A stretch of 46,028 bases of DNA. Source: a virus. The DNA is taken from positions 1-46,028 of IMG/VR virus record IMGVR_UViG_3300041409_000292, one strand, 5' to 3'. Positions 1-46,028 of this stretch are shown here, piece by piece (within the stretch, counting starts at the first letter, position 1; each line of letters opens with the position of its first letter). A model generated the notes under the pieces. That model saw nothing but the letters and a program-made list of their open reading frames with translations. It ran no database searches and was not told the DNA's origin. Both the position numbers and the translations under genes were made by a program.

Positions 1-439
1 AGGAGGTGACCGCAAGAGCGAGGCGGCAAAATCGCTTCCGGTGCTGACACCGGAAGCGATCCCGCGAGGCGATTCGCGTGACCTTGCAGGCCGGGCCGTC
101 GGTGTCGGTGGCACAACAATCGACAAGGCTACGAAGGTGCTGAAGAAGGGGACTGCCGAACTGATCGCGTCGGTAGACGCTGGAGAAATGCCCGTGTACG
201 TCGCCGCGAGGATCATCGACACCCCGCATCCGGAATCGGACACGGAGAAGGATGTTGCGAAGGAGTCGCCACAGGAAATCCCAAAACCAGAGCAACGACC
301 GGCGGCCAACAAAGAAGACGGCAAGGCCATCTTGATTGCGAACGAAGCCATCAACCTGCTCATGAAGATCCGGCCCGACAACCCCCGTCGCGCCGAGGCG
401 TACAGGATCGTTCAGTTGTGGATCAGGAAGAATCTCTAA
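1..439 (+). CDS. ParB-like DNA-binding protein, C-terminal part (gene continues from 45700)
   Basis: This frame is open from base 2 to the TAA at 437-439 and has no start of its own. Joined to the gene that runs off the right end, it gives one 255-residue protein; bases 46027-46028 plus base 1 form an ATA codon. The segment begins GGDRKSEAAKSL, a sequence typical of the linker after the DNA-binding part of phage and plasmid ParB/Spo0J-like proteins, followed by a second helix-turn-helix-like stretch (VGVGGTTIDKATKVLKKG). A GTG at 41 could be taken as a start but has no ribosome site at a proper distance. The next ParB-like gene starts 12 bases downstream, so the two are probably co-transcribed. 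DNA binding is inferred from family resemblance; the target site is unknown. Confidence 0.8.
   Translation, partial: GGDRKSEAAKSLPVLTPEAIPRGDSRDLAGRAVGVGGTTIDKATKVLKKGTAELIASVDAGEMPVYVAARIIDTPHPESDTEKDVAKESPQEIPKPEQRPAANKEDGKAILIANEAINLLMKIRPDNPRRAEAYRIVQLWIRKNL
31..60. repeat. Perfect 13-bp inverted repeat inside the ParB-like gene
   Basis: Bases 31-43 (ATCGCTTCCGGTG) are the exact reverse complement of 48-60, separated by a 4-base loop (CTGA). It lies inside coding sequence, about 30 bases from the window end, and would form a very stable hairpin in the mRNA or a cruciform in DNA. No T-run follows, so it is not an obvious terminator. It could be a binding site for the ParB-like protein itself; that is inference. 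Confidence 0.75.
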
Positions 440-451: not shown

Positions 452-1240
452 ATGAAGGCTCCCAAAGTCCAGGCGACGAACAAGTATGACCTGTTCTACC
501 GCTCCGACGACAACCGGCCGCTGGACCTCACGCGGCACAAGGCGCTGTCGAAGAGCATGGAAACCTACGGGTTCCTGGAAGACTACCCGATCGGCGTGTA
601 CCCCGATGGGAAGGGCAAGTTCGTCATCAAGGACGGCCAGCACCGGCACGCGATCGCGGCTTCGCTCGGGCTGCCGATCTACTACATCATCTCGTCGGTC
701 GATTACGACGTGGCCGTGGTGAGTAGCGCGGCGAAGGGGTGGCGTCCGATCGACTATGCGGAGCGGTGGGCGGCGGCAGGCAAGCCCGACTACACCGAGG
801 CGATCGAGTTCGTGAGGGAGTACAAGATTCCCCTTTGCACGGGGTTCGCTCTGCTGGCGGGCACGACCTCGTTCGGGAACTTGCAGCCGGCCTTCACCAA
901 CGGCGATTACAAGGTGAAAGATCGGGCGTGGGCCGTGAAGGTCGCGTCTCTCCACCAAGGCGTGTCGCGGATCAACCCGAAGCTGAGAAGCGCGAACCTC
1001 CTGATTGCATTCATGGCCGTCTGCCGGCTACCCGAGTTCGACTCGCAACGCCTGCTGGCGAACGCGGCATCCGCCCCGGACAAGTTGGTGGGTTACAGCA
1101 CGCTCGATCAGTGCCTGCGGATGCTGGAAGAGGTTTACAACTTCCGCCGCACGAACCGATTCCCCCTGGAATTCAAAGCCCGCGAAGTGATGCGGGCGCG
1201 GAGTGCGGCGAAGCCAAAGCGAGACGACCCGCCCGCCTGA
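452..1240 (+). CDS. ParB N-terminal-domain-like protein
   Basis: A 262-residue protein with the ParB/sulfiredoxin-fold signature DGQHRHAIAA at residues 61-70, which in the family contacts nucleotide. The N-terminal about 100 residues match the ParB-like fold; the rest is helical and not recognised. It starts 12 bases after the stop of another ParB-like gene, and no ParA-type ATPase is present anywhere in the window, so a classical three-part partition system is not visible. Proteins like this occur in phages and mobile elements beside replication genes. The role could be plasmid-style maintenance, transcription control or nuclease activity; I cannot choose among these. Confidence 0.7.
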   Translation: MKAPKVQATNKYDLFYRSDDNRPLDLTRHKALSKSMETYGFLEDYPIGVYPDGKGKFVIKDGQHRHAIAASLGLPIYYIISSVDYDVAVVSSAAKGWRPIDYAERWAAAGKPDYTEAIEFVREYKIPLCTGFALLAGTTSFGNLQPAFTNGDYKVKDRAWAVKVASLHQGVSRINPKLRSANLLIAFMAVCRLPEFDSQRLLANAASAPDKLVGYSTLDQCLRMLEEVYNFRRTNRFPLEFKAREVMRARSAAKPKRDDPPA

Positions 1241-2399: not shown

Positions 2400-3317
2400 A
2401 TGGACCGCGTCGCGTGGCTGAAAGAACGGCAGTCGGGCATCGGCGGGACGGACGCCGCCGCCCTGTGCGGGGTGGGGTTCTCGTCGCCCGAGCGGGTGTA
2501 CGAGGAGAAGGTTTCGCCCGAGCCGATCGACCGCCCAGCGAACCTCCGGATGCGGCTGGGGGCGCACACCGAACGGCTCGCGCTCGACCTCTACCCGCGA
2601 ACCGTTGGCGTGGTCGAGTGGGGCGGCCAGAGGGTCGTGCGCGACCCGCGCGAGTCGTGGCGGTTCTGTTCCCCGGACGGATTCCACGTCGCGGGACCGC
2701 AGCGCCGTCTGCTCGAGGTCAAGACGCTCTGGGGCTACCCGTCCGACGAGTGGGGCGAGGCCGGCACGGACCAACTGCCAGACGAGGTGCTGATTCAGGT
2801 CCAGCACTCGCTCGACGTGTGCCTGGCCGCGGGCGAAGTCGGGGATTCCGTGGCCGACGTGGTGGTGCTGTGCCCGGCGTGGGACGACGTCCGCATCTAC
2901 CACGTCGAACTCAGCACGCGGCTCCTCGCCCCGCTGGTCGAACTGGAGCGATCGTTCTGGGGGTGCGTCGTTTCGCGCTCCGGCGTCGAGGGGTGGGAGT
3001 CGCCGCTGCGGGCGGCCGTCACCGAACAGTTGCGCCGGATCAACCCGGACACGGCGATCGACCTGGAACCAGAGGCGGCGGTTCTGGTCGAGCAGTACGA
3101 GCGGGCGCAGGCCGCCGCGAAGGACGCCGAGGCGTCGAAGAAGGCGGCCCGCGCCCGGCTGGAACTACTGCTCGACGGCCGCGAAGTCGGTCGGCTCGAC
3201 GACGGGCGGCGCGTCCGGCAGAAGGTGACGAGCCGCGGCGGGTACGCCGTCGCGCCCACGACCTACGTGGATTTCCGCATCCTCAAAGCCAAGAAGGACA
3301 AGACCCATGAACAGTGA
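2400..3317 (+). CDS. YqaJ/lambda-type phage exonuclease
   Basis: A 305-residue protein with the restriction-like fold signatures of the YqaJ viral recombinase family. These are SGIGGTDA near residues 12-19, SPDG at 91-94, LEVKT at 105-109 (catalytic E-V-K) and IQVQHSL at 132-138. Such enzymes digest one strand of a duplex 5'-3' and hand the single strand to an annealing protein. The C-terminal about 80 residues are charged and probably coiled coil. The following gene overlaps by 11 bases and is the likely annealing partner, giving a two-gene recombination module of the Red or RecET type. Confidence 0.88.
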   Translation: MDRVAWLKERQSGIGGTDAAALCGVGFSSPERVYEEKVSPEPIDRPANLRMRLGAHTERLALDLYPRTVGVVEWGGQRVVRDPRESWRFCSPDGFHVAGPQRRLLEVKTLWGYPSDEWGEAGTDQLPDEVLIQVQHSLDVCLAAGEVGDSVADVVVLCPAWDDVRIYHVELSTRLLAPLVELERSFWGCVVSRSGVEGWESPLRAAVTEQLRRINPDTAIDLEPEAAVLVEQYERAQAAAKDAEASKKAARARLELLLDGREVGRLDDGRRVRQKVTSRGGYAVAPTTYVDFRILKAKKDKTHEQ

Positions 3318-5338: not shown

Positions 5339-6172
5339 GTGCCGAGCCGACTGTTACGCGAGGGCATCTTGGACAGCGACCGGGTGAACGCCCTGTCGCT
5401 GCCGGCGGAAGTGTTCTACCGTCGGCTGATGAGTGTGGTGGACGACTTCGGACGTTTCGACGGCCGACCCGCCGTGTTGCGGAGCCGGTTGTACTCCTTG
5501 CGAATCGATTCCGTGCGTGAGGCCGACATCTCCCGTTGGAGCGCCGAGTGCGCGAAGGCCGGGCTGATCGCTCTCTACGCCGTCGACGGCAAGCCGTACC
5601 TCCTGTTCCACAAGCTCGGGTCGCCCCGTGCGAAAGACTCGCGCTATCCAGCACCACCGGCCGGAGTCGAACGCCCCGAGGACGCCAGCGCGCATCCGTT
5701 TACGGATGTAAACGCACGTAAACAGCCGTTTACGGATGTACCGTATTCGGGTTCGGGTTCGGGTGCGAGTTCGTATTCGGGTGCGAGTTCGTGTAGCGAC
5801 CCGCCCGAGGCGGGTCGCCCCGCGGCGGCGATACCTCCGGAATTGGATACTCCGGAATTCCGGATCGCGTGGGGGACGTGGAAGGCGCAGCGGGCGGCGA
5901 AGAGGCTCAAGCCCTACACCCCCGTCGGCGAGGCCGGGCAGTTCAAGGCGCTCGCCGTGATCGGCCCGGCCGCCGCGGTCGAGTGCATCGAGGACTCGAT
6001 CCGGAACGAGTACCAGGGCCTGTTCCCGAAGAAGTTCGCCCGCCGCCCGACAGTCGGCCCGACGCTCTCGCCGAGCGAGCAGCGCGCCCGGCTCGACGCC
6101 CGCATCGCCGAGATCGCCGCCGAGGAGAAGGCCCGCAAGGACGGCGGACAACCGGGGAGCGCCGCCGCGTGA
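5339..6172 (+). CDS. Phage replication initiator (lambda O / DnaD-like)
   Basis: A 277-residue protein from a GTG at 5339. The N-terminal about 100 residues (MPSRLLREGILDSDRVNAL, then VFYRRLMSVVDDFGRFDGRP) match the winged-helix DNA-binding domain of phage replication organisers. Residues about 118-160 form a low-complexity linker rich in Ser and Gly. The C-terminal part has the compact helical block with TWKAQR and YTPVGEAGQF that occurs in such proteins, then a basic helix. The DNA coding the linker holds regularly spaced repeats and hairpins (separate entry), the same arrangement as the lambda origin inside O. It overlaps the next gene by 4 bases. Confidence 0.8.
   Translation: MPSRLLREGILDSDRVNALSLPAEVFYRRLMSVVDDFGRFDGRPAVLRSRLYSLRIDSVREADISRWSAECAKAGLIALYAVDGKPYLLFHKLGSPRAKDSRYPAPPAGVERPEDASAHPFTDVNARKQPFTDVPYSGSGSGASSYSGASSCSDPPEAGRPAAAIPPELDTPEFRIAWGTWKAQRAAKRLKPYTPVGEAGQFKALAVIGPAAAVECIEDSIRNEYQGLFPKKFARRPTVGPTLSPSEQRARLDARIAEIAAEEKARKDGGQPGSAAA
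5693..5870. other. Candidate replication origin inside the initiator gene
   Basis: Four copies of GTTTAC or its complement start at 5698 (+), 5708 (-), 5718 (-) and 5728 (+), exactly 10 bp apart. Two copies sit in a 13-bp direct repeat (CCGTTTACGGATG). Next come direct repeats of TTCGGG and GTATTCGGGTGCGAGTTC (5743-5791). A perfect hairpin follows with 10-bp arms (5796-5805 with 5809-5818). Then come two copies of TCCGGAATT, the second forming the palindrome TCCGGAATTCCGGA. Repeats inside the initiator gene are the hallmark of lambdoid origins, where the initiator binds them. Function here is inferred. Confidence 0.6.
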
Positions 6173-10827: not shown

Positions 10828-11148
10828 ATGCCCCAGCGCCCCAAGCGGCTGAAGCCACCCGGCGGGAACGCCCCGCGGTACACGCCGCCGCAGGCCGCAC
10901 GCCCCACCGCCGCACAGCGCGGGTACGACTACAGTTGGCAGAAGGCCCGGCTAGGCTACCTGGCCGACCATCCGTTGTGCGTGCCCTGCGGCGAACGCGG
11001 GCTGACCATGGCCGCGACCGTCGTGGACCACATCGTGCCGCACAAGGGCGACAAGACATTATTTTGGTCGTCCGACAATTGGCAAAGTTTGTGCGCCACC
11101 TGCCATAATCGCAAGACGGCAACCAGTGACGGGGGATTCGGGCGATGA
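10828..11148 (+). CDS. HNH endonuclease, packaging-associated
   Basis: A 106-residue protein. It has zinc-binding CVPC (51-54) and CATCHN (89-94) and the catalytic DHIVPH (67-72), the classical HNH order. The N-terminus is Arg/Lys/Pro-rich. In HK97-type phages an HNH protein encoded beside the terminase (HK97 gp74) stimulates cos cleavage, and the position just before TerS fits that role. The next gene overlaps by 4 bases. Confidence 0.9.
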   Translation: MPQRPKRLKPPGGNAPRYTPPQAARPTAAQRGYDYSWQKARLGYLADHPLCVPCGERGLTMAATVVDHIVPHKGDKTLFWSSDNWQSLCATCHNRKTATSDGGFGR

Positions 11149-12257: not shown

Positions 12258-12730
12258 CCGACGACAGGAAGTTCGTGGTGGCGATCTTCGCGGCCCGCGG
12301 CGACGACACCCCGCGGTTCGTGTTCGCGGACTGGCTCGACGAGCAGGCCGCCGACCGGGGCGAGCCGACCCCGACGCCGTTCGCCGCGTACCTGCGCCGC
12401 GGGTGGGCGTGGGCGCTGGAGGGCGAAGAGAATTGCATCTGTGATCTGGTCTGTATGCACTACCGGGTGCCGCCGGAAGAGATCAAGATCGTCCCGGCGC
12501 TGAACATCGCCTCCGAGGTCTCGTGGTACGCGATGGCGTGCGAGTGCAGCTACGAGCCGCCGTCGTTTACCTTGATGCGTGCGCCCGAACTGCGGGTCCG
12601 GGAGCCGATCTTCGCAGTCGCGTATCTGACGAAGGAGAGGTTGAGGACGACGGACGGGAGCGAGATGTTCGTCTGGCACGGCCGCTGCGAGAAGTGCCGG
12701 CGAATTCACGTGGCGCTGACCGAGACATGA
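12254..12730 (+). CDS. TIGR02996-domain protein between terS and terL
   Basis: A 158-residue protein. Residues 7-40 contain the TIGR02996 signature RFVFADWLDEQ, an approximately 40-residue N-terminal module expanded in Gemmata and relatives. The rest has several Cys (CICDLVC, ACECSYE and CEKCRRIH), so it may bind zinc. It is inserted between the terminase genes with ATGA overlaps at both ends, an unusual place for a non-packaging gene. The module's function is not established. It may be a host-derived adaptor. Confidence 0.75.
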   Translation: MTDDRKFVVAIFAARGDDTPRFVFADWLDEQAADRGEPTPTPFAAYLRRGWAWALEGEENCICDLVCMHYRVPPEEIKIVPALNIASEVSWYAMACECSYEPPSFTLMRAPELRVREPIFAVAYLTKERLRTTDGSEMFVWHGRCEKCRRIHVALTET

Positions 12731-14421
12731 CCACCGACCGCGACACGAAGGACTGGATACGCACCCCCGCCGACGAACTCGCCGCGAAAGCGGGGATGCG
12801 GTTCGACGCGGAGCGGGGCCAGTTCGCCTGCGACTGGATCGAATCGCGGTGCCGGCTGTACGAGGGGGACAAGGCCGGCGAACTTCTCGAACTCCTGCCC
12901 TACCAGCGCGATTTCTTCATGCGGCTCTTCTCGTGGGTCCGCTGGTCGAACAAGTGGGACGCCTGGATCCGCCGCTTCACGCACGCCGGACTGTGGGCCG
13001 CGAAGAAGAACGGGAAGTCCCCCGGCGCGGCGGCGTTCAACCTGTACATGGTCAGCGGGGACGGCGAGCAGGGGCAGAAGGTGTACATGATGGCGAACGG
13101 CGGGCAGCAGGCCCGCATCGCGCAGCGGCACACGGTGAAGATGATCCAGCAGATGCCCGCCGCCGAGCGGGCCGACTTCAAGGTCAACAACACGACCCTG
13201 AACATCGACCACCTGCCCACGAACAGCCTGATCGAGATCGTGACCGGCGACGACCGCCGCGGGGCGGACGCCAAACACGGGTACAACGGCAGCGTCACGA
13301 TCGACGAAATGCACGTCGTGAACCGGGTCATGATGGAGGCCGTCGGGCGGGCGGGCTTGAGCCGCCGCGAGCCGCTGCAGGTGTCGTTCTCGACGGCGGG
13401 CACGGACCCGTCCTCGGTCGGGTTCGAGCGGTTCCAGTACGGCCGCCAGGTCAACTCGGGCGAGCGCGCCGACCCGCACTACCTGCACGTCGAATACTGC
13501 GCGCCGGACGACGCCGGCGACGCCGACATCGACGAGAACATCGACGAGTACGGGAGGATGGCGAACCCCGCCTGGGGGTCGCTGATCGACCCCGAGGAAT
13601 TCCGGTCGGACTGGCAGCGGTCGAAGCAGACGCCGCGGAAGGTGGCGATCTTCAAGCAGGAGCGGCTGAACCTGTGGGTCGGGTCCACGAACCAGTGGCT
13701 CGACTCGGCCGCGTGGGCGCGGGCGGCGCGCGCCTTCACCCTCGCCGACTGCGCCGGGCGGGACTGCTACGCCGGCCTGGACCTGTCCCGCAGCGGGGAC
13801 ATGACGGCGAACGTGTTCACCTTCCCGTGGCCGGAGGACGGCCCGGAGTGCGTCCGCGTGTGGCCGATGTTCTGGCTGCCGAGGGACACCGCCCGCGACC
13901 GCGAGCACCTGTTCCCGTTCGCGACGTGGGCCGCGGGCAGACACCTGACGCTGACCCCCGGCGCGAAGATCGACTACTGGCAGGTCGAACAGGAGATCCG
14001 CGAGGCGATCGAGGCCCACAACCTCAACGTTCTTGCGCTTTACTATGACGAACATTATGCTAACGAGATGACGCAATCGCTCCACGAGGGGCGGACCGTC
14101 GGCGCGGAAAGTCTCCCCGGCGTCGTCGCCGAGCGGGTGGTGTTCAAGCAATCGCTGATGCCGTTCACCGGACCGGCGAAGGAGTTCGAGCGGCGGGTGA
14201 AGGTGGGCGAGGTCGTTCACCCCGACAACCCGGTGATGAACTGGCAGGTCGGGCACTGCGAGGTGTGGAGCGACCGGAACCAGAACATCCGGCCGGTCAA
14301 GCCCGCGCCGCACTCGGGCAAGAGCGTTGACGGCGTCGTGTCGGCGGTGATGACGTTCGCAGGACTCATGGCCCCGGTCGCGGACTCGACCATCCCACCC
14401 CTCGTGGTGATCGACCTATGA
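12727..14421 (+). CDS. terL: Terminase large subunit
   Basis: A 564-residue ATPase/nuclease that drives DNA packaging. The Walker A-like AAKKNGKSPG is at residues 91-100, Walker B SVTIDEMH at 189-196 and coupling motif FSTAG at 221-225. The RNase H-like nuclease begins at CYAGLDLSRSGD with D352, and a second acidic patch lies in SVDGVVSA near the C-terminus. The order matches HK97-type (Terminase_1/YmfN) enzymes, whose Walker A also has KKNGKS. The portal gene overlaps by 4 bases. Confidence 0.95.
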   Translation: MTTDRDTKDWIRTPADELAAKAGMRFDAERGQFACDWIESRCRLYEGDKAGELLELLPYQRDFFMRLFSWVRWSNKWDAWIRRFTHAGLWAAKKNGKSPGAAAFNLYMVSGDGEQGQKVYMMANGGQQARIAQRHTVKMIQQMPAAERADFKVNNTTLNIDHLPTNSLIEIVTGDDRRGADAKHGYNGSVTIDEMHVVNRVMMEAVGRAGLSRREPLQVSFSTAGTDPSSVGFERFQYGRQVNSGERADPHYLHVEYCAPDDAGDADIDENIDEYGRMANPAWGSLIDPEEFRSDWQRSKQTPRKVAIFKQERLNLWVGSTNQWLDSAAWARAARAFTLADCAGRDCYAGLDLSRSGDMTANVFTFPWPEDGPECVRVWPMFWLPRDTARDREHLFPFATWAAGRHLTLTPGAKIDYWQVEQEIREAIEAHNLNVLALYYDEHYANEMTQSLHEGRTVGAESLPGVVAERVVFKQSLMPFTGPAKEFERRVKVGEVVHPDNPVMNWQVGHCEVWSDRNQNIRPVKPAPHSGKSVDGVVSAVMTFAGLMAPVADSTIPPLVVIDL

Positions 14422-16130
14422 CGACCGAGACGCTCGACTCGATCGGGTTCTTCGCCGCGCCGGGGGCCGGCGACGCCGAAAGCCCGCCGGCCGCGCCCTC
14501 GGCGTCCACGCTCAGTCACCCCGCGCCGTGGTTCGTCCAGTGGGCGGCCGGCAACGCCGGCGGCGACGCGCCCCCGGTGGTGAACGAGCAGACCGTCCTG
14601 AACTACCTCGCGGTCTACAGCTGCGTCGGCCTGATCGCCGGGTCGATCGCGTCGCTGCCCCTCATCGTGTACCGCCGGAACATCAAGACGAAGACGCGCG
14701 AGCGGGCGACCGACGCGCGGGTCTACCGCGTCCTTCACGACGAGTTCAACCCGCGGATGTCCTCGGCCGTCGCTCGGGAAACGTCGGTCGGGCACCTCCT
14801 GACGTGGGGCAACTGCTTCTCCCAGGTCGTCCGCAACAAGAGCGGCAGCGAGGTGCAGCAGATCAACCCGCTCGGCCCGGACGTGGTGGACGTGCGGCAC
14901 GACGAGCGGACCGGGGCGCAGGTGTACGACGTGTACCAGCGCGGGGACCGCACCAAGCCGATCGCGACCCTCGCGGCGGAAGACGTGTTGCACGTCCCGG
15001 CGATCGGGTTCGACGGCATCTGCGGGTACTCCCAGGCCCGCATCGCCCGGAACGTCATCCGCGCGGGCATGGCGACCGAGCGGGAGATGGAGCGGTTCGC
15101 GTCGCGCGGGTTCCGCCCGCCCGGCGCGATCCGGATGCAGCCGGGCAAGAAGTTCGGCAGCACGCAGGAGGCGATCAAGTTCATCGAGGACTTCAAGAAG
15201 ATTCACATGCAGAGCGATTCGTCGTCGAAGGTCGTGATCCTGCAGGACGGCGCGGAGTGGGTCAACATCGGCGTCGCCCCCGACGCCGCGAAGACGCTCG
15301 AAACGCAGAAGTTCACCCGCGGCGAGATCGCCGGCATGTACCACGTCCCGCCGCACATGATCGGGGACGTCGAGAAGTCCACCAGCTGGGGGACCGGGAT
15401 CGCCGAGCAGGTGGACGGGTTCATCAAGTTCGCGCTCCTGCCGTGGCTCGTGAAGATCGAGCAGGAGAAGAACCGGAAACTGTTCGGCGGCTCGACCGAG
15501 TACCACGTCGAGCACCTCCTGGAAGGGCTGGAACGGGCCGACATTTTGAAGCGCACCGAGGCGTACAGCAAGCAGGTCCTGATCGGGATGCGGATGCCGA
15601 ACGAGTGCCGCGAGACGGAGAGCATGAACCCGCACCCCGGCGGGAACGTGCTGCTGTTCCCGTCGAACTACATCCGCGTGGACGAGTTCGGCGACGAGAT
15701 CGCGCCCGCCGCCCCGCCCGCGAACCCCTCCCCCGGCCCGCCCGCGGAGAACGCGGCTCTCGCCGCCGCACTACGGAAGGCGGTCGTGTCGGCGACGGGC
15801 CAGTGCCTGCGGAAAGAGGCGGCGCAGGCGAAGCGGGCCGCGGCCAAACCGGGCGAGTTCGTCGCGTGGCTCGATGCGTTCTACGGCGATCACGTCGAGA
15901 TGGTCGCGGACAAGTTGCAGCCGCTCGCCGAGGCGTGGGAATCGACGTTCGGCAAAGCCCCGTTCGGCGTCGTCCTTCACGTCGAGCGGAGCCGCGCCGA
16001 CCTATTGGCCGCGGCGGACGGTCCGCCGGCGAAGTTCGCGGAGCGGGTCGAAAAGGTCGCGGAGCGGTGGCTTAGCGAACGGGTCGTCGAAGTGGCGGGG
16101 GGCCTTGTTCCACTAACGAAGGCGGCTTGA
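14418..16130 (+). CDS. Portal protein (HK97 family) with C-terminal extension
   Basis: A 570-residue protein. Residues about 55-425 form the portal core: VYSCVGLIAGSIASLPLIVY near the start, the loop segment GRVHLLTWGNCF-like region, and IAGMYHVPPHMIGD at 304-317, a strong HK97 portal signature. A Pro/Ala linker (about 428-445) leads to a further about 125 helical residues, which makes the protein longer than the usual 400-450. The extension may be a scaffold-like or head-completion domain. Portals form the dodecameric DNA channel at one capsid vertex. Confidence 0.93.
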   Translation: MTTETLDSIGFFAAPGAGDAESPPAAPSASTLSHPAPWFVQWAAGNAGGDAPPVVNEQTVLNYLAVYSCVGLIAGSIASLPLIVYRRNIKTKTRERATDARVYRVLHDEFNPRMSSAVARETSVGHLLTWGNCFSQVVRNKSGSEVQQINPLGPDVVDVRHDERTGAQVYDVYQRGDRTKPIATLAAEDVLHVPAIGFDGICGYSQARIARNVIRAGMATEREMERFASRGFRPPGAIRMQPGKKFGSTQEAIKFIEDFKKIHMQSDSSSKVVILQDGAEWVNIGVAPDAAKTLETQKFTRGEIAGMYHVPPHMIGDVEKSTSWGTGIAEQVDGFIKFALLPWLVKIEQEKNRKLFGGSTEYHVEHLLEGLERADILKRTEAYSKQVLIGMRMPNECRETESMNPHPGGNVLLFPSNYIRVDEFGDEIAPAAPPANPSPGPPAENAALAAALRKAVVSATGQCLRKEAAQAKRAAAKPGEFVAWLDAFYGDHVEMVADKLQPLAEAWESTFGKAPFGVVLHVERSRADLLAAADGPPAKFAERVEKVAERWLSERVVEVAGGLVPLTKAA

Positions 16131-16134
16131 CACC

Positions 16135-17034
16135 ATGCGTTACGAGCGAATCCTTGCGGCTCTCCTTGCGGAGCCGCTCGCCATGCACCCGGCGTCGGCC
16201 GAGTGGCTGTTCTCGCTCCGCAAACTGCCGGAGGCCGAGATTCAGGCGAAGCTCGCCGCCGCGACCCGCGGGCGGTCGTCGCGCGCGTCCGGCCCGGCCG
16301 TCGTCCACATCCGCGGGTCGATCGTCCGCGAGCCGAACTTCTGGACCGAGATGGGGTTCGCGACCAGCGCCGAGGACGTGGGGCGGCAGATCGACTCCCT
16401 CGCCGCCGACGCCGGCGTGCCGGCGATCGTGCTGGACATCGACTCGCCCGGCGGGACGGTGAGCGGGACGCCGGAACTGGCCGCGCGGGTCGCGGCGGCG
16501 GCGACCCAGAAGAAGGTGATCGCGGCCGTCACCGGCACCTACGCGGCGAGCGCGGCGTACTACGTCGCGTCGCAGGCGTCGGAACTGGTCGTGTCGCCCG
16601 GCTCCGAGGTCGGGTCGATCGGAGTCGTGATGATGCACGTTGACGAAAGTGAGTACCTGAAACAACTCGGCGTGAAGGTGTCGTTCGTGGCCGCCGGGGC
16701 GCAGAAGGTCGCGGGCAACCCGTTCGCCCCGCTCGACGACGCGGCCCGCGCCGAGTACCAGCGGCGGGTGGACGACTCTTACCAGGACTTCGTCCGCGCG
16801 GTCGCGGTCGGGCGCGGCGTCACCCAGACGCGGGTGCGCGAGGAGTGGGGGGCAAGGATCTTCCCCGCGCGCGAGGCCGTGCGGCTGGGGCTGGCGGACC
16901 GAATCGGGACGATCGACGACGTGCTCACCCGCCTCGGCGGGGCGGGCCAGGGCGGGGGCGGTCGCGCCGAGTCGCCCGCACAACCGGACCGCTCGGCGGT
17001 CCAAATCCGCCGCCGCCGGATGCGAATGGGTTGA
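16135..17034 (+). CDS. S49-family capsid maturation protease
   Basis: A 299-residue protein of the SppA/SohB clan used by many phages as prohead protease. DIDSPGGTVSG at 101-111 is the oxyanion segment, and YAASAAYY at 136-143 contains the nucleophile S139. K191 in AGAQKVAGNPF is 52 residues later, the same spacing as the Ser-Lys dyad of Bacillus SppA. The C-terminal Gly/Arg-rich tail is probably removed. It lies between portal and capsid genes, as expected. Confidence 0.92.
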   Translation: MRYERILAALLAEPLAMHPASAEWLFSLRKLPEAEIQAKLAAATRGRSSRASGPAVVHIRGSIVREPNFWTEMGFATSAEDVGRQIDSLAADAGVPAIVLDIDSPGGTVSGTPELAARVAAAATQKKVIAAVTGTYAASAAYYVASQASELVVSPGSEVGSIGVVMMHVDESEYLKQLGVKVSFVAAGAQKVAGNPFAPLDDAARAEYQRRVDDSYQDFVRAVAVGRGVTQTRVREEWGARIFPAREAVRLGLADRIGTIDDVLTRLGGAGQGGGGRAESPAQPDRSAVQIRRRRMRMG

Positions 17035-17235: not shown

Positions 17236-18618
17236 GTGAACGAGACCATCCGCCGACTCGAAACGCAGATCGCCGGGCTGATCGACCAGCAGGAGGCCGC
17301 GCTCGCCTCGGCCGAGGCCGAGGGGTGTTCGGCGGAAGACCGCGCCCGCCACCTCGCCAATTGGGACTCGCTCCAAACCCAGATCGCGACCGCCCGCGAG
17401 TCACTCACCCGCGCCACGGCGAGCGTGAGCAACCGCGCGCAACTCAACGCCGGCCGCGGCGAACCGGCGACGCCGGCGATCGTGCAACTCCACAACCCGC
17501 ACGCCGCGGTGTCCGCGCCGGCCCTGCCCGCGGGGACGCGCCGCCGCGCGAACCTGAAGGCGTTCAAGGGCACCGACGCGAACGAGCGGGCCTACCGCGC
17601 CGGGCTGTTCGTCGCCGGGGCGCTGCTCGGGCACTCGCCGAGCCGCCAGCGGTACGCCGAGATGTACGGGCACGGCGACCTGAACGCGACCACGCTCTCG
17701 ACCAGCAGCAACACCGGGGCGGCCTACTTCGTCCCCGACGTCATGGACATGGAGATCGAGCGGCTCAGCGAAGAGTACGGCGTCATCCGCCGGCTCGCCA
17801 AGAAGCGGACGATGACGTCCGACACGTGGAGCGGGCCGCGGTGGACGGGGGCGCTCACCACCTACTTCGTCGGCGAGGGGCAGGCCCCGACCGCGCAGAC
17901 CGAGCAGACCTACGACCTTATCTCGCTCGTCGCGAAGAACCTCGCCGCCTACGGGAAGATGTCCCGGAACCTGTCCGAGGACGCGATCATCGACCTCGGC
18001 GACGAGTGGACGATGTACGCGGCGATCTCCTTCGCGCAGAAGGAGGACGACTGCGCGATCAACGGGACCGGCGCGTCCGCCTACGGCGGGATCCACGGCC
18101 TGCTCCCGAAGATCATCCTGTCGGCGAACTCCGCGGGCCTGGTCACCGCGACCGGGCACACGACCCTCGGCGCGCTCACCCTGGCCGACTTCTGGTCCGT
18201 CGTCGGGAAGGTGCCGAACTACCCCGGCATCGACCCCGTGTGGCTGTGCCACAAGGAAGTGTACGCCGCGAGCATGGGGCCGCTGCAGACGGCCGCGGGC
18301 GGCGTCACCGCGCAGGACATCGCCAACGGCGGCATCCCGAAGTTCCTGAACTACCCGGTGGAGTACGTGAACGTCATGCCGCGGGCCGCGAGCGTGACGA
18401 CCGGCGTCACCGGCATCCTGCTCGCGGACCTGGCGATGTCCACCGCGTTCGGCGACCGCCGCCAGCGGACGTTCGAAGTCGGCATGATCAACGACGACTT
18501 CATCAAGCAGCTCATCACCCTGCTCAGCACCGAGCGGTTCGACATCAACTGCCACACGATCGTGGACCCGGTCGATTCGACCAAGCCGGGCCCGGTGATC
18601 GGGCTGAAGCTCGGGTAA
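17236..18618 (+). CDS. Major capsid protein (HK97 fold)
   Basis: A 460-residue protein from a GTG at 17236. Residues 1-60 are a coiled coil (ETQIAGLIDQQEAALASAEA), the delta/scaffold domain removed by the protease; a linker reaches about residue 110. The remainder carries HK97-fold features: NTGAAYFVPDVMDMEIE (N-arm to E-loop), YFVGEGQAPTAQTEQTYD (spine), LVAKNLAAYGKMSRNLSED, and a late AFGDRRQRTFEVG segment. About 350 mature residues is normal for the family. The start lacks a strong ribosome site apart from GACCGAGGGCA. Confidence 0.93.
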   Translation: MNETIRRLETQIAGLIDQQEAALASAEAEGCSAEDRARHLANWDSLQTQIATARESLTRATASVSNRAQLNAGRGEPATPAIVQLHNPHAAVSAPALPAGTRRRANLKAFKGTDANERAYRAGLFVAGALLGHSPSRQRYAEMYGHGDLNATTLSTSSNTGAAYFVPDVMDMEIERLSEEYGVIRRLAKKRTMTSDTWSGPRWTGALTTYFVGEGQAPTAQTEQTYDLISLVAKNLAAYGKMSRNLSEDAIIDLGDEWTMYAAISFAQKEDDCAINGTGASAYGGIHGLLPKIILSANSAGLVTATGHTTLGALTLADFWSVVGKVPNYPGIDPVWLCHKEVYAASMGPLQTAAGGVTAQDIANGGIPKFLNYPVEYVNVMPRAASVTTGVTGILLADLAMSTAFGDRRQRTFEVGMINDDFIKQLITLLSTERFDINCHTIVDPVDSTKPGPVIGLKLG

Positions 18619-24126: not shown

Positions 24127-24899
24127 CGCGGCCGCGGCGGGGATCGCTGGCGACGAACGTGGCGGCGCTCATGGGCGGCGGGGCGGTCCCCGCGTCCCTG
24201 ACGTCGCTCGCCCTGCGATACCTCGCCGCCCCCGCGTACCTGTTCCAGGAGACCACCGGGGCTAGTGCCACGACCCCCGCCGCCGCGGACGGAGACCCGG
24301 TCGGGACGTGGAGAGACCTCGGCGGAAACGCCCGCTACCTGACGGCGGCGACGGACGCGACGCGGCCCACGCTACGACTGGTGTCCGGCGTCTGGGAGGT
24401 CCAGTTCGACGGTGTGGACGACGCCCTGTTGAACGCCGCGTACACCCTCCCGCTCGGCTCGCCGTGGTCGATGGCGGTGGCGTACCGGGTGGCCGCGAGC
24501 GCGCACGGGTCGTTCGTGCACCACGGGTCGGCGGCGGCCGGGTACGGGATCGGGTGCGGGGCGGTCGATCAATCCGGGAACGGGACGAATCTGATCGGGT
24601 ACAACGCGGCCGTGGGCTGGGACGTGGACGGCGTACACAACGGGACGGGGGCCGTGCTGGTCCGCCGGGCGTCCGCGACTACTCGCACCTGGGACCACAA
24701 CGGCACCACGTCCACCACCGGGGCGGCGGGGATCAACGCGGGCGGGACCGGGTTCTACGTCGGGCGTATCCCCCCCGCGTCGGGCGTGTTCCTGGCCGGC
24801 GGCATTCGCGAACTGTTGGTCGGCGAGGCGGCGTGGTCGGACGCGGAGAAGGTCGCGCTGTCGGCGTACTTCGCCGCGGCCTACGGGGTGACACTGTAA
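24123..24899 (+). CDS. Lectin-domain (LamG-like) fibre protein
   Basis: A 258-residue protein from the GTG at 24123. From about residue 40 it reads as a concanavalin-like jelly roll: WEVQFDGVDDALLNAAYTL, SPWSMAVAYRV, an internal Gly-rich portion and the closing GGIRELLVGEAAWSDAEK. It is the second lectin-type protein in this cluster and is probably involved in surface sugar binding. The next start codon overlaps its stop by 1 base (TAATG). Confidence 0.7.
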   Translation: MTRPRRGSLATNVAALMGGGAVPASLTSLALRYLAAPAYLFQETTGASATTPAAADGDPVGTWRDLGGNARYLTAATDATRPTLRLVSGVWEVQFDGVDDALLNAAYTLPLGSPWSMAVAYRVAASAHGSFVHHGSAAAGYGIGCGAVDQSGNGTNLIGYNAAVGWDVDGVHNGTGAVLVRRASATTRTWDHNGTTSTTGAAGINAGGTGFYVGRIPPASGVFLAGGIRELLVGEAAWSDAEKVALSAYFAAAYGVTL

Positions 24900-25327
24900 T
24901 GCCGACCCTCAACCCGCACCGCCTCGTCGTCGTCTGCCCGCTCGCCCGCCTCGCCGCGCTCGGGGCGTGGTGGGCCGCGAACATCGACCCGGCGGACGAC
25001 TGCGCGAACTGGCCCGCCCTCAACCCGTCCGGCAGCGACGCCGACGCCGCGACGCACCGCTGGTGCTCGACCGCCCTGACGAACGCGCAGTGGCGGGCCG
25101 TCGTGGTGCGGGTGTGCCAGATCGCGGGCGTCAGTCCGCCGAGCGTGGCGACGTGGAACGGGTGGACGCGGGCGCAGCAGCGGGCGTGGCTCAACACGAC
25201 CCGCGAGGGCCTGTTCGCCGCGACCGGGATTTGGCTGGCGCACAGTGACGGCGACGGCGAGTGGGACGACCCGGAGGGCGCGCTGACCCGGCTGGCGGTC
25301 CGGCGGCGGCAATCAATCGGCGGGTGA
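24899..25327 (+). CDS. Hypothetical protein
   Basis: A 142-residue protein with ATG 24899 sharing a base with the preceding stop. It is rich in Ala, Trp and Arg and mostly helical (LARLAALGAWWAANIDPADD, then AQWRAVVVRVCQIAG). It lies just before the head-tail adaptor gene. It is not recognised; it may be a tail-fibre chaperone or a structural accessory. Confidence 0.65.
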   Translation: MPTLNPHRLVVVCPLARLAALGAWWAANIDPADDCANWPALNPSGSDADAATHRWCSTALTNAQWRAVVVRVCQIAGVSPPSVATWNGWTRAQQRAWLNTTREGLFAATGIWLAHSDGDGEWDDPEGALTRLAVRRRQSIGG

Positions 25328-25330
25328 GGA

Positions 25331-25693
25331 ATGGCCGGCGCGATCCGAAAAGAGCCGATCGGAAAACTCCGGCACCGCTGCCGGATCGAGGCGCTGTCGG
25401 CCAGCCCGACGCGGGACGCGTTCGGCGCGGTCGTGCAGGTGTGGAGCGCCGAAGCGGTGGCGTGGTGCCGCGTCGAGCCCCAGACGGTGGTGAGCGGCGA
25501 GGAGACTCGCGGCTCCCACCAGCAGGCCGACTGCACGCACAAGGTGACGATGCGATACCGGGACGGCTTGACGCCCAAGAAGCGGCTGGTGTGGCTGCGG
25601 GGCGGCCGGGAGTTCGTGCTGAACGTCGTGTTCGCGCCGCCGATGGAGGGCGTCGAGAACTGGCTCGAAGTGTGGTGCAAGACGGAGCAGTGA
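25331..25693 (+). CDS. Head-tail adaptor / head closure protein
   Basis: A 120-residue protein from ATG 25331 belonging to the Phage_H_T_join type (SPP1 gp16-like). It has an opening RHRCRIEALS strand, then DAFGAVVQVWS, a central VEPQTVVSGEE and a final VFAPPMEGVENWLEVWCKTE. These are the beta-barrel elements of stopper proteins that seal the portal channel. It starts the tail-joining gene group. Confidence 0.82.
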   Translation: MAGAIRKEPIGKLRHRCRIEALSASPTRDAFGAVVQVWSAEAVAWCRVEPQTVVSGEETRGSHQQADCTHKVTMRYRDGLTPKKRLVWLRGGREFVLNVVFAPPMEGVENWLEVWCKTEQ

Positions 25694-28187: not shown

Positions 28188-30572
28188 GTGGCGAAACACG
28201 CGATCGACGACCTGGCGGTGATCATCTCCGCGAGCACGGAACAGCTCGCCGGGGACTTGCGCGCCGCCGCCCGCATGTTCGCCGACTTCCAGAAGGACGT
28301 GGCGAAGGCGAACGGCTCGGTCGCGTCGCAGAAGATGGAGTTCGCCGGGTTGAAGGCGATGACGGCGGGGATCAAGGGCGTGACCGCGCACGCCAAAGAC
28401 GCCGCGCTGTCCGTCGCCGGGATCGCCGCCAAGACCGCCGTCGCGACCGCCACGTTCGGCGCGATGCAGGCCGCCGGGATGGGGATCGGGGCGTCTTTCC
28501 AGCAGGCCAAAGACTCGGTCAACATGGCCGCCGACCTGGAGCAGACGACGCTGGCCTTCGAGGTCATGCTGAAGTCCGCCGACGGCGCGAAGAAGATGCT
28601 CGGCGAGATCCGCCAGTTCGCCGCCACCACGCCGTTCAACTCGAAGGAACTGACCGAGTCGGCCCGGATGCTCGTCGCCTACGGCACGACCGCCGACCAG
28701 GTCATCCCGACGCTGCGGATGTTGGGCGACGTGTCCGCCGGGATGGGCAAGGACTTGCCGATCCGCGACCTGACGTACCTCTACGGCACCCTGCAGGCGC
28801 AGGGCCGGGCGTACACGAAGGACATCAACCAGTTCACGAACCGCGGCGTGGACGTCCTGCCGAACTTGTCGAAGGAACTGAACGTCACGACCGCCGAAGT
28901 GATGAAGTTGGTGGAGGAAGGCCGGGTCGGGTTCCCCGAAGTGGTCAAGGCGTTCAAGGCGATGACGGCCGAGGGCGGGCGGTTCCACGACATGACGAAG
29001 CGGCAGAGCCAGACCTTCGCCGGCCTGCGCGAGAGCGCCTTCGACGCGCTCGATTTGATCAAGACCAAGTTCGGGCAGGTGGTGATCGAGGAGTTCGGCC
29101 TCAAGGACGCGGCGCGGGACTTCGACAAGTTCGCCAAAGACGTGATCGCCAACGTGGACCGCGTCCGGCCGGCGGTCCGGCTCGTCGGCGACGCGGTCAA
29201 GGGGATCGTCCAGATCAGCTACGAGCTCGGCCGCGCCGGGACCGAGTCGCTCGGCCTGTGGGTGGAGCAGGCGCGGGCCGCGTTCCCGGAGTTGGGCCGC
29301 GCCGCCGACTCGTTCCGCGAGGTGATTTCCGGACTGCAGAACTTCAAGTTCGACAACCGGGCGGTCACCCGGTTCGCGATCGACGCCGGGCGGCTGGTGC
29401 TCGAAACCGCGGCCGTGGCGATCGACGCGACGAAGGGGTTCGCCGAGAAGTTCCACGAGAACTGGGTGAAGCCCATCGTGGGCGGGATCAAGGACATCAA
29501 GGCCGCGCTCGACACAGTCGGGGCCGGGTGGAAGATCATCGGGAACGCGGCCACGCCGAACCAGGGGCAGGTCGCCGACCCGTTCGGCCCGCCCGTTCCC
29601 GGCGAGAAGCCGGAGGCGATCCTGGCCCGGTACAAGCTCATCCGCGACCAGATGGAGATGTTCCGGAAGCGGGCGGCCGACTCCGGCGGGGCCGACCAGG
29701 ACGCGATCCACGGCGTTCTCAACATGCGGCACCGCTCGATGAACTTCCTGAAGCCGTTCGGCGACTCGTGGGGCGAGCAGAACGCCGCCCACGCCGCGCT
29801 CGCGGCCGGCAAGGTGCCGGAGCTGAAGGGCGCTCAGGCCGACACCGCCGACTGGCTGCGGGGAATAAAGAACACCCTCGACGGCTTCGAGTCGGCCGCG
29901 CTCAAGCGGCTCGAGGAGCGCGAGGCGGACGCCTACCACGCCGAAGTCGTGGCGAACAGCGCGGCCCTGGAGAAGAGTTTTCAGGCGGAAATGGCCGCGG
30001 CGGACGCCGGGCGCAAGGCCGCCGAGGTGCTCCGCGGGGCGCTCGACCCGGCGGCCGGGGCGGTGACGGCCCTCGGCGTCGCGGCGGCGCACCTCGACGA
30101 GAGTTTCGGGGGGCTGGCGTCGAACTTCTGGCGCAGCGCGGTCAGCGACCTGCGCGGCCAGATCAGGGGCGAAGTGCGCGTCCCCGGCGGGCCGAGTACG
30201 CAGTTGTTGGAGTTCGTCAACACCGCGAAAGACGACTTCGACCCGATGCGCAAACTCCAGCAGGACAAGAAGCTGCTCGACCAGGCCGCGCAGTTCAACC
30301 TGCTCGGCCGCGACCAGATCGACGCGGCGTGGACGCGGAAGGTGCGGGCCGCGGCGGGCCACCTCGGGGTCGGCGGGCCGCCGCAGCTGGCCGACGCGGT
30401 CTCGGTCGGCAGCGCCGAGGACGCGCGGCTCCTCGCCCGCCACCAGGTCGGCGGCGGGCCGGTGAAGACCGAGGACTTGCTCCAGCAGCTGCTGGAAGTG
30501 GCGAAGCAACAGCTACGCATGGACGCGAACGCGAACCGGCACGGCGTGAGGATCTTGGGCATCGAGTTCTAA
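28188..30572 (+). CDS. Tape measure protein
   Basis: A 794-residue protein from a GTG at 28188. The N-terminal helices are followed by a hydrophobic Ala/Gly-rich section (about 72-104). The tape measure domain (about 105-300) has LEQTTLAFEVMLKSADGAKK, FAATTPFNSKELTESARML and VDVLPNLSKELNVTTAEV, close to TIGR02675. The rest is long helices. At about 0.15 nm per residue the tail would be about 120 nm. It is threaded through the tube and ejected with DNA. Confidence 0.92.
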   Translation: MAKHAIDDLAVIISASTEQLAGDLRAAARMFADFQKDVAKANGSVASQKMEFAGLKAMTAGIKGVTAHAKDAALSVAGIAAKTAVATATFGAMQAAGMGIGASFQQAKDSVNMAADLEQTTLAFEVMLKSADGAKKMLGEIRQFAATTPFNSKELTESARMLVAYGTTADQVIPTLRMLGDVSAGMGKDLPIRDLTYLYGTLQAQGRAYTKDINQFTNRGVDVLPNLSKELNVTTAEVMKLVEEGRVGFPEVVKAFKAMTAEGGRFHDMTKRQSQTFAGLRESAFDALDLIKTKFGQVVIEEFGLKDAARDFDKFAKDVIANVDRVRPAVRLVGDAVKGIVQISYELGRAGTESLGLWVEQARAAFPELGRAADSFREVISGLQNFKFDNRAVTRFAIDAGRLVLETAAVAIDATKGFAEKFHENWVKPIVGGIKDIKAALDTVGAGWKIIGNAATPNQGQVADPFGPPVPGEKPEAILARYKLIRDQMEMFRKRAADSGGADQDAIHGVLNMRHRSMNFLKPFGDSWGEQNAAHAALAAGKVPELKGAQADTADWLRGIKNTLDGFESAALKRLEEREADAYHAEVVANSAALEKSFQAEMAAADAGRKAAEVLRGALDPAAGAVTALGVAAAHLDESFGGLASNFWRSAVSDLRGQIRGEVRVPGGPSTQLLEFVNTAKDDFDPMRKLQQDKKLLDQAAQFNLLGRDQIDAAWTRKVRAAAGHLGVGGPPQLADAVSVGSAEDARLLARHQVGGGPVKTEDLLQQLLEVAKQQLRMDANANRHGVRILGIEF

Positions 30573-38051: not shown

Positions 38052-38690
38052 TCAGACGGACTTCGCCCAGGCGATCGCGGCGGCGGACAGGGCGTCGAGG
38101 GCGGCGTCGCTGGTCGGGAGGCACACGAACCGCTGTTCGGCTTTGGCCGTGTTGCGGGGGTCGGCCCGCATCAAGTCAATCAACTCCGCCGGCACCACGT
38201 CCCCGCCCTCGTGCCGGCGGCGGCGGTCGGGCGGCATCCACCACTGGAAACCGCGATAGTAGCCGCCGGCGCTCGGTACCCGGTCCGTCAGCCGCACGAC
38301 CTCGACCGGGTGCGCCCGCACGACCGCCGGGCCGTGGGCCTGCCACGCGGCGAGGGGGCAGCGGACCTCGGCGGCGAACCCGCGATCGAACGACCACAGT
38401 TGGTCCGTCGTGCCGAACAGGTCGTACGGCCCCCAGAGAATCCGTCGAGCCAGTCGCGAGCCGGCCGGGCACCCCTGGATAATCTTGATCGACCGCTCGA
38501 TTGCGTCGCCGTCCCACGCTTTCGTGGCGCGGGTCGTGACCATGTGCCGAATCCACCACGCCCGCAGTGACAGTTCCTCGCCGCCCTGCTCGTCGAGCCA
38601 GTCGGCGAACGCCAACCGAACCGTGTCGTCGGCGGGGTCGCGGAGGATCGCGGCGAGAAGGCCGGCACCGTCGGTTGTGGTCGCGGTCAC
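38052..38690 (-). CDS. TIGR02996-domain protein
   Basis: A 212-residue protein. GTG 38690 has GAGGTG 5 bases upstream; the longer frame is rejected. Residues about 10-35 (AAILRDPADDTVRLAFADW, then LDEQG) are a clear TIGR02996 module. The rest includes a Trp-rich part (GGYYRGFQWWMPPDRRRR) and resembles Gemmata proteins of unknown function that follow this module. Its presence on a phage suggests capture from the host. Confidence 0.8.
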   Translation of the reverse strand: MTATTTDGAGLLAAILRDPADDTVRLAFADWLDEQGGEELSLRAWWIRHMVTTRATKAWDGDAIERSIKIIQGCPAGSRLARRILWGPYDLFGTTDQLWSFDRGFAAEVRCPLAAWQAHGPAVVRAHPVEVVRLTDRVPSAGGYYRGFQWWMPPDRRRRHEGGDVVPAELIDLMRADPRNTAKAEQRFVCLPTSDAALDALSAAAIAWAKSV

Positions 38691-38721
38691 GTCGCACCTC
38701 GTTTCGCCCGCCGGGGCGGGG

Positions 38722-39099
38722 TCAGGCGGCTTGCTGGGCGGCGGGGTCGCCGACGGGAAGGTCTTTAGGCCAGTGGCCGTATGTCGCGAGGTAGTTTCTG
38801 AGCGCAGCTTCGACCACCGCCCGGATGGTGGTTTCATTCGCCGCAACGTAGTCGTCGATCGCCGGGCTCATCGTCTTGATCCGCTCCACATCTTCGGCGG
38901 ACAAGCGGAACCACTCGCCGTGCGCGTGCTTAGCCGCGAACCTCCGATGCAACGCCTTCTCTAGCTGAAACATCCTGATCCACGAAACCTGAACGAGAAG
39001 CTTCGCGCGAAGCGTCTTCGCCCGCTTCGTCGGGTTGCGGCTTGCGCCGATCTTGAACAGGCCGTTGCGTTCGAGGACGTAGATGTAGCCGTGGCTCAC
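38722..39099 (-). CDS. T5orf172/GIY-YIG-like nuclease-fold protein
   Basis: A 125-residue protein. GYIYVLERNGLFKIGAS (4-20) gives the two GIY-YIG-type strands. Arg near 26, Glu47 in QLEKALHRRF, and GEWFRLS (61-67) match the T5orf172/MUG113 group, often found in phages. A C-terminal helix of about 40 residues follows. Its GTG start overlaps the stop of an upstream ribbon-helix-helix gene by 4 bases. Nuclease activity is possible but not established for this group. Confidence 0.75.
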   Translation of the reverse strand: MSHGYIYVLERNGLFKIGASRNPTKRAKTLRAKLLVQVSWIRMFQLEKALHRRFAAKHAHGEWFRLSAEDVERIKTMSPAIDDYVAANETTIRAVVEAALRNYLATYGHWPKDLPVGDPAAQQAA

Positions 39100-42598: not shown

Positions 42599-42936
42599 AG
42601 CGGCGACTCCGGGGAAGGGAATGTGGCACCGTGTAACGTACACGGGTCATGAGTTGTGACTCGATTTTTCAAGTGATTCAGCCGACGGAAGTTGCCCATC
42701 CGTGATTTTGCCGAACGCCACCGAACGCCAGAATTCCAAGCGTTTCGCGCGAAATACGCCCCCGTCCCGCGTTGCATCGGGTACATGGGCATTGGAGTTG
42801 ACGCCGCACGACTGCCGCCGCAATCGCCACGCCCGTAACGATTTGTGCCGCGCATCCTCTGCTTGCTTATCGCTCGCGCGGTGTAGTAGACACGTTCGTG
42901 TCATGAGTTCGCCGCGCCGGTGCCGATACCGGGGGC
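42599..42936. other. 338-base spacer before the integrase; attP candidate
   Basis: No gene is seen. It is less GC-rich than its surroundings. It holds the dyad CGTGTA-ACG-TACACG (42630-42644) and the dyad GACACG-TT-CGTGTC (42889-42902), each followed at once by GTCATGAGTT (42646-42655, 42900-42909). A possible TTGACG -35 box is at 42798. Attachment sites usually lie beside the integrase, and the repeats may be integrase or excisionase arm sites. Confidence 0.5.
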
Positions 42937-44229
42937 ATGGCGAACCCGGCAAAGCTCATCGAGCACGAGGGGAAATCCCTCACCCTGAAACAGTGGGCGG
43001 AACACACCGGTCTCAAAGTGGAGACGATCCGCTCGCGGATCGAGCACCAGGGCTGGCCGGTCGCCCGCGCCCTCGGCACCCCCGCCGGCGGGCGGCCGGC
43101 CCCCGCGCCGCGGGCCGTCGCCAAGCCCTGCCCGCCGCTCAAACTCCACAAGCCCAGCGGCCGCGCGTTCGTCCGGTGGAAGTCGCCCGGCGCGCCCGAG
43201 CAGTTCAAGTACCTCGGCCCGTGGGGGTCGAACGAAGCGGCCGACGCCTACCGCCGCTTCCAGCACGAGTGGGCGGCCGACGGTCCGGCCGCGGCCGACG
43301 GGAGTGGCGTCGGGGTGGGCGAGTTGGTCGCCCGCTACCTCGTCCACGCCGCCGCGTACTACGTCAAGGACGGCCGCCCCACCAGCGAGCAGTACGGCCA
43401 GCGGGCCGCCCTGCGGTTCCTCAACAACCTGTACGGCGACACGCCGGCGGCGGAGTTCCGCCCCGCGCACCTGCGGGCGTGCGTCGAGGGGATGAAGGCC
43501 GCCGACCTGACGCGGACGACGATCAACCAGTACCAGTGGCGGATCGTGAACTGCTTCGCGTGGGCGGTCGGGCAAGACCTGATCCCGCCCGAGGTCCACC
43601 AGAGGCTCACCTACGTCGAGAACCTCCGGCCCGGCCGGAGCGACGCGCGGGAGAAGCCGCCCGTCCGGAGCGTCCCGCCCGCCGTCGTCGAGGCGACGAT
43701 CCCGCACCTGGACGACGACCCGGCGCGGCGGGCCGTGCTCGCCGCGATGGTCCGGCTGCAGCTCGCGAGCGGACTGCGGCCGGGCGAGTTGTGCGCGATG
43801 ACGGCCGGCGCGATCGACACGTCGGGCGCGGAGTGGCTGTACGAGATCGACGGGCATAAAAACTTGCACCGGCAGGTCCGGCGGAAGCCGAAGCGGGTGT
43901 GGCTGGGGCCGAAGGCACAGGCGATCCTCCGTCCGTTCCTGGACGCCGCCCCGCCCGGCGGGCGGGTGTGGGTGTTCCCCGGCAGCCCGCCGCGCCCGGT
44001 GAGGCGCGTGCGGTTCTGGGAGGCGGTCCGGCGGGCGTGCGTCCGGGCTGGCGTCGAGCCGTGGCACCCGCACCAGCTGCGGCACAACAAGGCGACCGCC
44101 GTCCAGGACGTGTACGAGAGCGACGCGCACACCGCCGCCGCGATCGGGGACACGCCGGAAGTCGCGCGGGCCGTCTACGTCGATCCGCGGGACGCCGTCG
44201 CCCGCCGGGTCGCGCGGGAATTGGGCTGA
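42937..44229 (+). CDS. int: Tyrosine recombinase / phage integrase
   Basis: A 430-residue protein. Residues 15-46 (LTLKQWAEHTGLKVETIRSR) form an N-terminal helix-turn-helix unit of the kind found on phage nucleases, followed by a strand-rich arm-binding segment. The core-binding domain (about 125-235) includes AAAYYVKDGRPTSEQ, typical of planctomycete enzymes. The catalytic domain has R281 (GLRPGE), H379 and R382 (HQLRHNKAT) and nucleophile Y414 (RAVYVD). The usual His/Trp before Tyr is D405 here. It carries out site-specific integration and excision. Confidence 0.92.
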   Translation: MANPAKLIEHEGKSLTLKQWAEHTGLKVETIRSRIEHQGWPVARALGTPAGGRPAPAPRAVAKPCPPLKLHKPSGRAFVRWKSPGAPEQFKYLGPWGSNEAADAYRRFQHEWAADGPAAADGSGVGVGELVARYLVHAAAYYVKDGRPTSEQYGQRAALRFLNNLYGDTPAAEFRPAHLRACVEGMKAADLTRTTINQYQWRIVNCFAWAVGQDLIPPEVHQRLTYVENLRPGRSDAREKPPVRSVPPAVVEATIPHLDDDPARRAVLAAMVRLQLASGLRPGELCAMTAGAIDTSGAEWLYEIDGHKNLHRQVRRKPKRVWLGPKAQAILRPFLDAAPPGGRVWVFPGSPPRPVRRVRFWEAVRRACVRAGVEPWHPHQLRHNKATAVQDVYESDAHTAAAIGDTPEVARAVYVDPRDAVARRVARELG

Positions 44230-45246: not shown

Positions 45247-45294
45247 ACACCTGTCCAAATCACGGCAGGGCACACCGGACGGAGGGAAACACGG

Positions 45295-45621
45295 ATGGAC
45301 ACCGCGACGCAGACGAAACCGCTCACGCCGCACGAGGTCGCGGACTCGCAGCGGCTCGGCGTGCAGACCGTGTACGACTGGATCACGATCGGCCTCCTGA
45401 TCCCCGACGGCCGCGCCCGGAAGCGGCGGGTGAAGTTGAAGGCGACGCGGGCCGGCGCGCGGTGGCGGATCGCCCCCGCGGACCTGGGGGCGTTCCTGAA
45501 GACGATGACCGACGCCTACGCCCCGGACGACGCGCCGACCGTCGCCACGACCGAGACGGAGGCGAAGCGGAAGAAGCGACTGGCGGACGGCAAGGCCGCC
45601 GCCGCCGCGATGCTCGGCTGA
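45295..45621 (+). CDS. Helix-turn-helix protein (excisionase/HTH_17-like)
   Basis: A 108-residue protein. ATG 45295 has CGGAGGGAAAC before it. LTPHEVADSQRLGVQTVYDW is a MerR/excisionase-type helix-turn-helix. GARWRIAPADLGAFLKT is the usual second part of such domains in planctomycetes. The tail is Lys/Ala-rich. It sits before the ParB-like pair, so it is either a directionality factor for the integrase or a regulator of the ParB genes. Confidence 0.75.
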   Translation: MDTATQTKPLTPHEVADSQRLGVQTVYDWITIGLLIPDGRARKRRVKLKATRAGARWRIAPADLGAFLKTMTDAYAPDDAPTVATTETEAKRKKRLADGKAAAAAMLG

Positions 45622-45699: not shown

Positions 45700-46028
45700 A
45701 TGGAGTTCCATGAGGCCGCGAATATCTTCCCGATGGAAGAGGATTCGATCGCCGAACTGTCGGCCGACATCGCCAAACGCGGGCAGTTGGTTCCGATCGA
45801 GTTGTTGGGTGGGAAGATCATCGACGGGCGACGACGGTGGACGGCGGACCAGCGGGCGGGTGTGATTCCGATAACTCGCGAACTTGACCCGGCGAAGGTG
45901 CCCGACCCGGTGGCCTACGTCCTGTCACTGAACCTTCACCGGCGACACCTCACGCCGTCGCAACGGGCAATGGTCGGGGCGAGGGCGCGAGAGATTTACG
46001 ACCGAGAGGCGAAGGATCGCCAAAAGAT
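45700..46028 (+). CDS. ParB-like protein, N-terminal part (gene continues at base 1)
   Basis: From ATG 45700 the frame is open to the end of the window, 109 full codons plus AT. The ParB box IDGRRRWTAD is at residues 41-50, and a helix-turn-helix (LTPSQRAMVGARAREIYD) at 84-101. AKDRQK leads at the junction into IGGDRKSEAAKS at base 1. The combined 255-residue protein has the full ParB-like layout, so the break is an assembly or linearisation point and not a biological truncation. No ParA gene accompanies it. Confidence 0.85.
   Translation, partial: MEFHEAANIFPMEEDSIAELSADIAKRGQLVPIELLGGKIIDGRRRWTADQRAGVIPITRELDPAKVPDPVAYVLSLNLHRRHLTPSQRAMVGARAREIYDREAKDRQK

Follow-up and report, generated by a model that had tools for sequence, protein, structure and literature searches.

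Protein homology across the ends of a 46,028-base virus record points to a complete or very nearly complete temperate phage genome in a record without a terminal repeat

The record ends and the open frame across them

The virus record IMGVR_UViG_3300041409_000292 is, in its entirety, the window analysed here (the whole stretch of 46,028 bases), and it raises the question of whether its two ends belong together or are the cut ends of a linear fragment. A first-pass annotation, made from the letters alone, had argued for the former on the ground that the ends join in frame. When base 46028 is joined to base 1, a single ParB-like frame of 255 aa runs from the ATG at 45700, and re-translation reproduced the proposed reading, in which the right-end frame leaves AT over, base 1 (A) completes ATA (Ile), and the frame continues with GGDRKSEAAKS to a stop ending at 439. 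The genes at the join and beside it are the following.

45295..45621, plus strand: HTH_17 / excisionase-like gene, shortly before the joined gene (Pfam HTH_17, E 3.5e-6; phrog_66, E 9e-5)
45700..46028, plus strand: joined ParB-like gene, 5' part, with residues 1-109 and two bases of codon 110 (from the joined translation and the homology of this half searched by itself)
1..439, plus strand: joined ParB-like gene, 3' part, with the last base of codon 110, residues 111-255 and the stop (from the joined translation and the homology of this half searched by itself)
452..1240, plus strand: second ParB-like gene, the immediate downstream partner (phrog_12305, E 2e-23)

That the ends join in frame was correct as a fact, but as an argument it carries little weight. 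The record has a G+C content of about 69% and long open frames throughout, and we set the real join, with its stop-free stretch of 281 codons, against 3,000 artificial ones that connected randomly chosen pairs of positions inside the window. A plus-strand open stretch of this length or more was present in 67% of the 3,000 joins, and one on either strand in 85%; at the real join the antisense strand is itself open for 376 codons. Since long open frames are common at this G+C, an open frame across a join has practically no force by itself, and frame continuity was dropped as evidence of closure after this control.

A terminal repeat commonly marks a closed genome, but closure does not require one. 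Comparison of the record ends revealed no exact direct repeat even as long as 6 bases, let alone one of at least 20 bp, the test for a complete circular virus genome, and no near-terminal repeats linking the two ends. The exact junction sequence was absent from the other contigs of IMG/VR, which may omit near-identical records. Short-read assemblers usually leave a terminal repeat of k-mer length on circular templates (PMC8116208); here the repeat was either trimmed off, or the assembly was of a type that leaves none. The record resembles the circular-template virus contigs that metagenome assembly breaks at random (PMC8116208) in its mid-gene break, its single contig and its full phage modules, but it is without their k-mer-length repeat, and its closure is demonstrated by protein homology instead. 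Because the repeat is missing, repeat-based screening would not rate this genome complete.

Homology of both halves to the same proteins

Closure is judged real on the homology of both halves of the joined gene to the same proteins, and not on the open frame. Residues 1-109, encoded at the right end only, and residues 111-255, encoded at the left end only, were searched separately against 85 related loci. Both halves matched in 14 loci, and in 13 of these the matches were collinear, in a single frame and close together. The N half alone showed 46-67% identity to relatives, with E down to 5e-44, and in the same loci the C half alone reached E values down to 2e-14; at one locus (L008) the N half had 67% identity (E 5e-44) and the C half 34% (E 2e-14), again collinear and in the same frame. 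A search for full-length homologues of the joined 255-residue protein, which the first-pass annotation had put forward as a check, found seven IMG/VR relatives (L008-L014) that are continuous across the junction, with nearly all 255 residues covered at 40-44% identity (tblastn) and the C-terminus aligned to its last residues (IVQLWIRKNL versus IVADWIKQNL). These matches bear out the earlier proposal that the two halves are successive parts of one ParB-family layout. Furthermore, separate searches with the two halves retrieve the same, more distant proteins of a Pseudomonas plasmid and of phage phiAH14a, and residues 13-125, which span the join, align to solved Noc/ParB structures (E 6e-6). With single sequences as queries, either the joined ParB or TerL, IMG/VR and genome contigs gave no matches; with profiles they did.

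The gene that follows the join is informative as well. The partner at 452-1240 starts 12 nt past the stop codon of the joined gene, and in eight loci (L008-L014 and L017) a relative of this partner trails an intact parB by 19-32 nt between matches, while in five more it comes about 200 nt after the intact first gene. Since the partner lies close behind an intact parB in these relatives, the pair reads, on sequence comparison, as a conserved cassette, which the ends of this record divide and which is intact elsewhere. The genes upstream of parB vary among relatives, and in no relative found were the flanks of parB collinear with the window's on both sides. From the homology of the halves and the conserved partner gene, the claim that the ends belong together and that the start point is arbitrary holds. 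We put at roughly 95% the probability that the map is closed and that the record holds all, or very nearly all, of the genome of a temperate tailed phage of the HK97 type.

Exactness of the join

The variable linker that follows the join, from the conserved ERQ to the conserved RD, has 26 residues in the window and 17-32 in relatives. A length inside this range indicates that nothing sizeable was lost at the join, and the loss of whole genes inside the joined parB is not credible. A few codons may have been lost or duplicated, as relatives differ in length just after the join. The reading in which the genome is nearly complete, with one gene at the join but with a short stretch (no more than a few tens of bases, of a length divisible by three) missing or duplicated there, draws on this spread of linker lengths and on relatives L089 (a Pirellulales MAG) and L014, which have one residue more after RQ, before the GGD of the GGD(R) motif that lies beside the join and recurs in L089. 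We consider it unlikely, since the window's 26 residues fall within the natural range and since L104, a locus of a genome sampled from the phylum of a Pirellulales MAG, shows no alignment gap near the join and has the same spacing (AQREGGKK versus RQKIGGDR in the window).

The closest ParB relative, on a Pirellulales MAG contig (L088:1486-1964; 58% over residues 1-108), is broken into two frames near the residue where the record is cut, probably through gene degradation or an assembly error.

Gene content of the phage

Beyond the ParB-like pair, the following genes were recognised.

2400..3317, plus strand: RecE-like / lambda-type exonuclease (phrog_434, E 7e-49; TIGR03033, E 6.5e-16, below cut-off)
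5339..6172, plus strand: replication initiation-like protein (phrog_5810, E 3e-16)
10828..11148, plus strand: HNH endonuclease upstream of the terminase (Pfam HNH, E 6e-10; phrog_2323, E 3e-33)
12730..14421, plus strand: terminase large subunit, TerL (TerL_nuclease, E 9e-23; phrog_9, E 8e-106)
14418..16130, plus strand: portal protein (Phage_portal, E 1e-79)
16135..17034, plus strand: S49-type capsid protease (Peptidase_S49, E 1e-36)
17236..18618, plus strand: HK97-type major capsid protein (Phage_capsid, E 6e-28; TIGR01554 above cut-off)
19983-20552: head-tail adaptor
25331-25693: head-closure
28188..30572, plus strand: tape measure protein (TMP_3, E 1e-19)
42937..44229, plus strand: tyrosine integrase (Pfam Phage_integrase, E 5e-14)

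A major tail protein, a tail chaperone and a repressor-like HTH protein were also recognised, and none of the proteins scanned was recognised as a lysis protein. With genes for packaging, head, tail, integration and replication all found, the earlier description of a gene set without evident gap is reasonable. The phage has in common with HK97-type temperate siphophages that carry an HNH gene beside the terminase its HNH, TerL, portal, S49 protease, HK97 capsid, tape measure and tyrosine integrase genes. It is unlike them in that its structural proteins are distant from those of named phages (the part of the structural module at 28.1-36.0 kb has no DNA relatives in phage records) and in that it encodes two TIGR02996 domains, described below.

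Several other features of the genome were observed. Head-tail adaptor and head-closure genes usually lie close together; here about 4.7 kb of G+C-rich genes (20659-25330) lie between them, with imperfect 63-bp tandem repeats at 22574-22862. In the early region, a plus-strand gene at 6907-7605 encodes a Swiss Army Knife RNA repair-type HAD domain (HAD_SAK_2, E 2e-16). Three similar motifs of 15-16 nt, one of them inverted, flank the integrase region (42693-42708, 45257-45272 and 45287-45301) and are candidate arm-type or operator sites. At 1306-1383 on the plus strand lies a tRNA-Asp-like element with anticodon ATC, whose acceptor and T arms are good, whose anticodon loop has about 10 nt by eye and whose score does not reach the Rfam gathering threshold; it may be a phage tRNA of degenerate or unusual form. 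A role for this element as an att site was weighed and found unsupported.

The joined protein itself resembles ParB/Noc-like phage and plasmid proteins (PHROG 12047 and 4715; plasmid WP_044265922) in its ParB N-terminal domain (phrog_4715, E 1.5e-11 over residues 10-168), in the GRRRW and NLHRRHLTPSQRA motifs, and in the helix-turn-helix-like part that follows this domain. It differs from the plasmid proteins in that identity to them is only about 35%, that Pfam ParB_N scores 16.9 bits, under the cut-off of 26.3, and that no ParA was recognised in the roughly 30 proteins scanned, a subset of the record's frames. This bears on whether the element could be a plasmid-prophage, maintained in covalently closed circular form by its two ParB-like proteins, and not an integrating phage. 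The tandem pair of ParB-like genes and the plasmid-borne nature of many non-phage relatives of the joined protein would fit such a lifestyle, but the integrase with its adjoining excisionase-like gene, the lack of a recognised ParA among the proteins scanned, and the presence of the same ParB pair in many virus contigs otherwise unlike this record make it quite improbable. Another reading takes the record as a linear fragment with an accidental join, in which each end happens to interrupt a different parB gene and the two cuts are complementary. In its favour, ParB-like genes are common in phages, a second one is present at 452-1240, open frames across random joins are frequent here and there is no terminal repeat. 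We consider it very improbable: the pieces are complementary to within about a codon and match one set of relatives collinearly, and behind the left piece comes the partner gene that also follows intact copies elsewhere. Chance cuts at matching residues of two paralogues, at both contig ends, would be very unlikely.

Packaging and the form of the DNA

The complete or very nearly complete phage genome has a closed map, and the closure of the map is all that is demonstrated. The first-pass claim that the element "exists or was assembled as a circle" goes beyond the evidence in its first part, as a closed map is also produced by linear virion DNA that is cos-ended or circularly permuted, and by concatemers. 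An HNH gene beside the terminase goes with cos packaging. Both an HNH gene near the terminase and an HK97 capsid are present in the window, and the order HNH-TerL-portal is also found in several IMG/VR relatives. A passage in PMC5304195, citing Kala et al. 2014, describes HNH genes adjoining terminases as components of packaging machines. The HNH-terminase-portal-HK97 module favours cos packaging, with the true ends away from the record ends. We propose that the DNA in the virion is most likely linear, with its cohesive (cos) ends at about 10-12.7 kb, close to the HNH and terminase genes, and that this DNA would circularise on entry and then either integrate via the tyrosine integrase or replicate as circle and concatemer. 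Read coverage at the 46028/1 join would then be no different from that elsewhere, and the assembler would have opened the map inside the ParB-like gene, with any end overlap presumably trimmed away.

Indications of the host

Two proteins, encoded at 11936-12730 on the plus strand and at 38052-38846 on the minus strand, contain a TIGR02996 (rpt_mate_G_obs) domain above cut-off. This domain is named for Gemmata obscuriglobus, is known from Gemmata and is unusual in a phage. It was absent from 14 control genomes and gave a strong match in 1 of 392 genomes sampled from Planctomycetota. In addition, a profile search found relatives of the joined ParB in Pirellulales MAGs, and together with the two TIGR02996 domains this sequence evidence points to planctomycete bacteria as the probable hosts. 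A search for an integrated relative in Planctomycetota genomes yielded ParB relatives, and the surroundings of the best of them (genome G320; L127 and L128) had nothing else in common with the window. The narrower proposal, that this is a complete temperate phage of Gemmata-type planctomycetes that acquired the TIGR02996 repeat-companion domain of its host group twice, seems to us about evenly balanced. Few phages of Gemmata-type planctomycetes have been described.

Meaning of a closed map

The biology of this phage is ordinary, and the result is useful bookkeeping. With completeness, gene absences become meaningful, the genes may be placed on a circular map, and the record becomes usable as a reference, though repeat-based tools would grade it as a linear contig only. 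More generally, searching half-genes alone against whole homologues, together with a conserved neighbour, provides a simple test for circular records that have no terminal repeat.
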